Positions 20,761 to 21,757 of a DNA stretch of 37,826 nt are shown here, piece after piece; the first letter of the stretch is position 1; every line of letters begins with the position of its first letter. The notes below the pieces were generated by a model. That model made no database searches. It was given only the letters and a program-made list of their open reading frames with translations, and was not told the origin of the DNA. The translations under genes and the position numbers were made by a program. Source of the DNA: Acidobacteriota bacterium (lineage in GTDB: Bacteria > Acidobacteriota > Terriglobia > Terriglobales > Acidobacteriaceae); contig QHZR01000050.1 of NCBI GenBank assembly GCA_003224755.1, positions 1 through 37,826 on the forward strand. The letters are read 5' to 3'.

Positions 20761-21108
20761 TTAAGCCGCCTTGCGTTTCGATTCGACGGGCAATCCGACG
20801 TCCTGCCATGCGCGGAATCCGTCCTTGAGCGCCCAGACGTTTTTGTAACCGCGTTCTTGGAGTTTCAGCGCCAAACTGGCGCTTGAGCCCTCGTTCGGTC
20901 AAGTACAGTAAGCGACGACGGGCCTGTCCTTGGGAATTCTGGGCAAGTTCGCTTCCAAATCGTCCACACGCACTCGGATCGCTTCCGGTATCTGCGTATC
21001 CGATTCCGCCCAAGCCTGCGGATTGCGAGTGTCGATCAGAGTAAAGTCCTCTCCCGCGTCCATTCGCCTTTTCAATTCCTCAACTGTGATTCGCGGAGCG
21101 TCAGCCAT
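20761..21108 (-). CDS. Rhodanese-like sulfurtransferase with in-frame UGA (candidate selenoprotein)
   Basis: A 115-residue single-domain rhodanese if the UGA at 20899-20901 is decoded. The ATG at 21108 is preceded by AAGGAG at 7 nt. Residues 1-69 show rhodanese features: TVEELKRRMDAGEDFTLIDT, then PQAWAESDTQIPEAIRV and DRPVVAYCT, with Cys68 the expected sulfur-carrying Cys. Codon 70 is TGA. After it the same frame continues PNEGSSASLALKLQERGYKN and VWALKDGFRAWQDVGLPVE to TAA, exactly the rest of the fold. In the family form I remember, the residue at the UGA is usually Cys (YCxCPNE). A hairpin downstream fits the bacterial SECIS rule. The alternative is a nonsense mutation giving a dead 69-aa stub. 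No sel genes are in this window. Confidence 0.7.
20867..20883 (-). promoter_or_regulatory. SECIS-like hairpin downstream of rhodanese UGA
   Basis: On the minus strand AGCGCCA-GTT-TGGCGCT, a perfect 7-bp stem with a 3-nt loop whose first base is G. The loop starts 22 nt after the UGA. Published bacterial SECIS criteria ask for a loop 16-37 nt from the UGA with a G in its first two positions. The hairpin is inside the coding region, as bacterial SECIS elements are. Confidence 0.5.
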
Positions 21109-21239
21109 GGTGAATCTCCTTCGCTCGACCTCAAATAATAGATGCCGCATGACTCTGTATGTTGCCCGCGCAGGCAAATCGGAGCCCTCATTTGCAGCCT
21201 TGCACTGAGACTTAACATCGAACGCGACGAGGTAGCCAG

Positions 21240-21593: not shown

Positions 21594-21616
21594 TGATGGG
21601 CGCTATAGGATTCGAC
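21594..21616 (-). other. Fragment resembling the 3' end of tRNA-Val
   Basis: The stretch TGATGGGCGCTATAGGATTC (from 21594) matches the acceptor/T-arm end of the tRNA at 21683 (TGGTGGGCGCTGTAGGATTT) with three differences. No other tRNA arms follow, so it is a remnant, possibly an old attachment site. Confidence 0.5.
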
Positions 21617-21682
21617 CTTGGCGTTTACGCGGCCTACGAGCCGCGAGCCAAAGTGACCAACGAACTCGAGGGACCTGAAAAA

Positions 21683-21757
21683 TGGTGGGCGCTGTAGGAT
21701 TTGAACCTACGACTTCCACCGTGTGAGGATGGCACTCTACCGCTGAGTTAAGCGCCC
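21683..21757 (-). tRNA. tRNA-Val (anticodon CAC)
   Basis: Cloverleaf visible on the minus strand: acceptor GGGCGCT/AGCGCCC, D-arm ACTC-GAGT, anticodon stem CCATC/GGTGG with loop CTCACAC (anticodon CAC, reading GUG), T-arm GTAGG-TTCAAAT-CCTAC, discriminator A and an encoded CCA. The tRNA is complete. Confidence 0.95.

Follow-up and report, generated by a model that had tools for sequence, protein, structure and literature searches.

The window analysed here is the whole 37,826-nucleotide (nt) stretch of contig QHZR01000050.1 (assembly GCA_003224755.1), from an Acidobacteriota bacterium of the family Acidobacteriaceae. Its minus strand carries a rhodanese gene whose reading frame, from the ATG at 21108 to the TAA at 20761, contains a single UGA (20901-20899), and shortly after this codon, still within the gene, the transcript can fold into a compact hairpin. 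On comparison with homologous sequences, this hairpin is very probably a bacterial selenocysteine insertion sequence (SECIS) element that directs the incorporation of selenocysteine (Sec, U) at the UGA. The features of the locus are the following:

20761..21108, minus strand: predicted selenoprotein gene of the rhodanese family (PF00581), ATG to TAA, 115 amino acids, with predicted U at residue 70 and the motif AYCTUPNEGSSASLA
20899..20901, minus strand: in-frame UGA, the predicted selenocysteine codon (Sec70), with Cys (TGC/TGT) at the equivalent place in 44 homologues
20905..20907, minus strand: codon of Cys68, an invariant column that aligns with the catalytic Cys of ordinary rhodaneses
20867..20883, minus strand: predicted SECIS upper stem-loop, with 5' arm AGCGCCA (20883-20877), loop GTT (20876-20874) and 3' arm TGGCGCT (20873-20867)
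20859..20892, minus strand: possible, weak lower helix enclosing the stem-loop, 20892-20889 pairing with 20862-20859
21116..21121, minus strand: Shine-Dalgarno-like AAGGAG, read from the sequence, 7 nt ahead of the ATG

As the initial annotation had described, the hairpin consists of seven Watson-Crick pairs without interruption, its loop lies 22 nt from the UGA, and the first loop base is G, all of which can be read directly from the letters. The match to the published bacterial SECIS (bSECIS) rule that it had claimed also holds. The criteria set out in PMC13188914 (Fig. 2A) comprise a loop of 3-9 nt that lies 16-37 nt from the UGA and has G as one of its first two bases, a stem of 4-16 base pairs (bp) and an energy of at most -7.5 kcal/mol; the window hairpin, with a stem of 7, a loop of 3 in which G is followed by U, a distance of 22 and -13.2 kcal/mol, falls within all of them. 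When a 41-nt stretch is folded, the stem is present in both the minimum free energy and the centroid structures (-14.3 kcal/mol; z = -2.07, with 3 of 200 shuffles equally good). No Rfam family matches over 20867-20901 (E up to 10), and hence no Rfam SECIS model does. The caution that such hairpins may arise by chance was well placed, since one sequence on its own is suggestive only: the window has 1177 TGAs when both strands are counted, of which 9 (about 0.8%) precede a hairpin that conforms to the rule with 7 or more Watson-Crick bp, 38 one with 6 or more and 111 one with 5 or more, and the hairpin GCGCCAGTTTGGCGC is found once more in the genome (L150), with no visible selenoprotein context. 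The single hairpin is thus weak evidence by itself, and the comparison of homologues is decisive.

Homologues were collected from 397 genomes of the order; 89 of them gave matches at E up to 1e-20, 92 in all, 52 with one internal TGA and 40 with none. A further contig search gave 26 loci, mostly from Acidobacteria metagenome-assembled genomes (MAGs) and partly identical to genes of the 397-genome search; one of them, a UGA form, comes from an Armatimonadetes MAG. Two architectures are seen among the UGA forms, namely stand-alone rhodaneses comparable to that of the window and longer fusions in which a VTT/DedA domain (PF09335) is joined to the rhodanese, the order of the two domains having been shown for three proteins (two UGA, one Cys). 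After removal of 11 duplicate loci and of the frameshifted L071, the aligned set comprised 53 distinct UGA sequences (33 stand-alone and 20 fusion) and 21 Cys sequences; the remaining 22 Cys matches were scored afterwards, so that all 40 order matches without TGA were examined. L140, being longer, took the place of L084, the decayed second copy found in genome G161 (L110/L257) was left out, and the rhodaneses without a CxU/CxC motif (L034-L041) were kept out of the counts. A phylum-wide sample of 396 genomes gave 13 matches (E up to 1e-22), one of which is the window's own; the other 12 have UGA at the active site in 11 cases and Cys in one. A covariance model, R1, was built from the 53 UGA sequences, and the 20 UGA genes found with it (19 fetched, plus L149) all have the stem; because R1 selects for the stem, they were not counted.

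The stem was evaluated in a fixed register, since for 10 UGA sequences a rule-based scan of single sequences preferred another fold, of six pairs and including wobble pairs. With the protein held fixed and synonymous codons redrawn from the homologues' own usage, the five core pairs would be expected in about 2.2 of the 53 aligned UGA sequences, and they are present in all 53 (stand-alone, 33/33 against 0.73 expected; fusion, 20/20 against 1.5). In another 12 UGA homologues, namely the 11 phylum-wide ones and L140, five pairs are formed in 10, in L234 through one G-U, and four of five in L230 and L231. The initial annotation had expected UGA orthologues to carry the hairpin at this place, and it had seen in the perfect stem a sign of selection on RNA structure; the first expectation agrees with these counts, and the second is borne out by them together with the compensatory changes described below.

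The comparison of synonymous sites that it had proposed also gives a strong signal. Codon homozygosity amounts to 0.97 for the five codons of the hairpin, compared with 0.45 at 48 other positions, and in the stand-alone set none of the 48 positions outside the hairpin reaches 0.9. There, AGC is used in 33/33 sequences, GCC in 32/32 with Ala, AGT in 31/31 with Ser, TTG in 28/30 with Leu and GCG in 30/30 with Ala. Because the element lies within the coding region, the codons of Ser-Ala-Ser-Leu-Ala would be frozen as AGC GCC AGT TTG GCG. Where the stem does change while keeping its pairing, two sequences have U-A for C-G, one has A-U for G-C and two have G-U for G-C. These changes include the A-U pair of L064, which cost two amino-acid changes (Ala to Thr and Ala to Val), and the compensatory changes fall in two of the core pairs. 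In the shuffle control, the observed number of paired cells, the covariation score and the number of cells changed on both sides were each reached in 0 of 500 shuffles, and the number of further pair types in 68 of 500. When the register was slid by -1 or -2, the cells with a change on both sides rose from 3 to 22 and 11, respectively, and the covariation scores were higher than in the true register, but far fewer cells were paired (28% and 46%, against 84%). Two decaying copies were seen in the course of this work: L071, a UGA rhodanese with a one-base frameshift and its 6-pair stem intact, and L257, the second UGA rhodanese of G161, in which one core pair is broken and 4/5 are kept.

The hairpin goes with UGA and not with Cys, again as the initial annotation had anticipated. 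It is absent from 42 of the 44 Cys homologues, being kept in 2/21 of the aligned ones (0.6 expected), in 0/22 of those scored afterwards and in 0/1 of the phylum-wide sample; among the 22, two reach four pairs, and the phylum-wide Cys sequence has one. The hairpin codons are not conserved in the Cys forms (homozygosity 0.33, against 0.44 elsewhere). The two exceptions, L104 and L111, are considered below.

It could be argued that the UGA is a true stop, so that the locus would be a pseudogene or would yield a 69-residue product, and whatever lies downstream would either be translated on its own or stay untranslated. UGA is indeed an ordinary stop in this genome, where TGA ends 5 of the 11 genes inspected (the genetic code is therefore not changed), and signs of decay can be seen in some copies elsewhere (L071, L257). 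Against this, the frame after the UGA is kept to its end in close relatives at 57-80% identity with exactly one TGA each time, Cys stands in the place of UGA in homologues, and the codons beyond the UGA are constrained. A true stop is therefore very improbable.

The SECIS reading is also consistent with the genes present elsewhere in the genome, which is 87% complete: selB (376.7 bits), selA (537.2 bits), selD (348.4 bits) and a tRNA-Sec with anticodon TCA (69.9 bits). R1 (E up to 1e-6) matches 131 of the 397 genomes, and 115 of the 131 also have selB (E up to 1e-70), compared with 49 of the 266 others; the stand-alone gene occurs in 29 genomes, 25 of which have selB at the same threshold. As a separate observation on the tRNA-Sec model, a 91-nt tRNA of the window's genome (L009, C500:206-296), assigned by ARAGORN as tRNA-Ile(TAT), passes its gathering score too (50.8 bits), and matches scoring alike occur in several relatives.

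Several points weigh against the SECIS reading. Because the genomes are related, counts taken from them lack independence, and some of the same sequences also served to train R1; for these reasons the co-occurrence of R1 and selB is taken as support, not proof. In 16 of the 131 genomes with the element there is no full-length selB match. One of these 16, G168, has selB split over two contigs, and another, G364, has a selB fragment; in G118 (99% complete), G277 (97%) and G126 (96%), the selB search gave only EF-Tu-like matches, although such a UGA gene is present in all three, as are selA, selD and tRNA-Sec. Since selB is cut over two contigs in G168, assembly gaps are a plausible cause of the missing matches. 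Finally, two Cys-containing DedA-rhodaneses, L104 (TGT) and L111 (TGC), keep an intact stem. The genomes of both are in the selB list, and the genus of L104 (g11) also has UGA forms, and for these reasons a recent change from Sec to Cys is the likely explanation.

The same three nearly complete genomes without selB would suit a different mechanism, in which the hairpin promotes decoding of the UGA by one of the ordinary tRNAs, for Trp, Cys or Arg, and not by Sec-tRNA, all the more as the inserted residue cannot be read from the sequence. This is hardly probable in the light of the complete set of SelA, SelB, SelD and tRNA-Sec(tca) in the window's genome, the replacement of UGA by Cys in homologues, the strong co-occurrence with selB and the agreement with every bSECIS criterion published in PMC13188914. 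Least probable of all is a chance hairpin forced by Ser-Ala-x-x-Ala codons in a G+C-rich genome, for although the protein does dictate two pairs, those between the GC of one Ala codon and the GC of the other, and the occurrence of such hairpins after other TGAs of the window and in L150 lends it something, it is refuted by the resampling (a chance per sequence of 2% in stand-alone and 7.5% in fusion forms), by the compensatory changes and by the absence of the stem from nearly all Cys forms.

As for the protein, it is formed by one rhodanese domain, which exceeds the gathering score of PF00581 (57.8 bits; cut-off 22.2). In its active-site stretch, YCTUPNEGSSASLA, the predicted Sec70 stands two residues past Cys68, giving a CxU motif, and the alignment places it in a loop two residues longer than the usual rhodanese loop. 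Rhodanese selenoproteins are already known from the Sargasso Sea (PMC1088965), and the CxU form 3 has also been reported (PMC13188914; PMC9312934). It corresponds to NCBIfam NF041203, rhodanese_LYCAU, listed as rhodanese-like domain-containing protein form 3, CxU (Table 1 of PMC13188914). This model is the best match for the window protein and 10 others, matching over nearly its full length and having the CxU motif and the rhodanese domain in common with them, but with scores of 74.2 to 112.8 all 11 stay under its curated cut-off, 115 bits. For the window protein (107.5 bits) NF041203 is the best model by about 60 bits, yet the score is 7.5 bits below the cut-off, and the motif is YCTU, not LYCAU. 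A literature search covering main texts found rhodanese selenoprotein families and no DedA-rhodanese selenoprotein; the words 'DedA', 'VTT' and 'SNARE' are absent from the main text of PMC13188914, and 'DedA' and 'VTT' from that of PMC12013277. Thus, the hairpin and its gene are a well-supported further case of the known bSECIS/rhodanese-selenoprotein kind, the DedA-fused selenoprotein being less familiar.

The process can be proposed as follows. In the SelB pathway, when the UGA moves into the A site, SelB with GTP and Sec-tRNA(Sec) binds to the loop and to the upper part of the stem. Here, the binding site of SelB carrying Sec-tRNA(Sec) would be the apical loop, with G as its first base, together with the upper stem, about 20 nt downstream of the UGA, and selenocysteine would be delivered at this codon instead of release factor 2 ending translation. 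The product would be a rhodanese of 115 residues with C-T-U in its active-site loop and Cys68 in the usual place of the catalytic cysteine, in which selenium presumably gives a reactive C-x-U pair suited to persulfide or redox chemistry, and the enzyme may act in redox reactions or sulfur transfer. A gene that standard annotation would cut at residue 69 is therefore very likely to encode a full selenoprotein, and the 53 aligned UGA sequences with the 44 Cys homologues provide a set in which a coding SECIS can be watched as it keeps and loses its codons.

The window gene is not the only one of its genome with these characteristics. R1 matches a second place (C435:15235-15282, 46.7 bits), within a DedA/VTT-rhodanese gene (L149:691-1659, plus strand) that contains a UGA in the motif YCTUARE. 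It shares with the window gene the active-site YCTU and the GCGCC/GGCGC stem, which lies 21 nt after the UGA, and it differs in its 5-nt loop (CGGGT or CGTGT), where G is second, and in the membrane domain PF09335 placed in front. Compared with the bSECIS model of PMC13188914, what is particular here is that two kinds of rhodanese gene have a nearly identical stem, probably by common descent. UGA-containing DedA/VTT-rhodanese genes seem to be widespread in the order, and the present case points to a widespread Sec-containing DedA-rhodanese in Acidobacteriota.

The selD gene of the same genome (L217, C86:4500-6200) also has an in-frame UGA, followed by a SECIS-like double stem. It resembles the window hairpin in its upper stem of seven pairs (GTCCGGC/GCTGGAC), in its G-first 3-nt loop 20 nt after the UGA and in having a lower helix; it belongs to a different gene, no similarity of stem sequence is seen, and its lower helix is longer. 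A similar arrangement of UGA and double stem was observed in the selD of 8 other genomes inspected. Around the rhodanese stem, a lower helix GAAG/CUUC is a weakly supported possibility: it occurs in relatives, the window copy forms 3/4 pairs, 81% of cells are paired and CTT is favoured at Leu+13 (25/31), but in the aligned homologues RNAalifold does not predict it and there are no double changes among its pairs.

Taken together, these data admit a broader proposal, which as a whole we consider possible but rather doubtful. The GCGCC...GGCGC stem would be more than a loose stem-loop, namely a lineage-wide SECIS class fixed in sequence, common to the rhodaneses of Acidobacteriota whether they stand alone or are fused to DedA, and also found in one Armatimonadetes MAG, with a lower helix as in the genome's own selD. 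The SelB of this lineage may read the sequence of the stem as well as the loop G, L104 and L111 would be selenoproteins caught losing their selenium, and the DedA-fused membrane rhodanese would be an undescribed selenoprotein.

With respect to its surroundings, in a comparison of 26 loci the stand-alone gene has conserved neighbours only within groups of 3 close relatives; two larger neighbour clusters, with 15 and 7 loci, consist mostly of frames that overlap the rhodanese gene itself. Partial copies of the 3' end of a tRNA can be left by integration events, and one apparent partial second copy of this type (GTCGAATCCTATAGCGCCCA) is seen downstream of tRNA-Val(CAC) in the window (21683-21757 and about 21600-21640).
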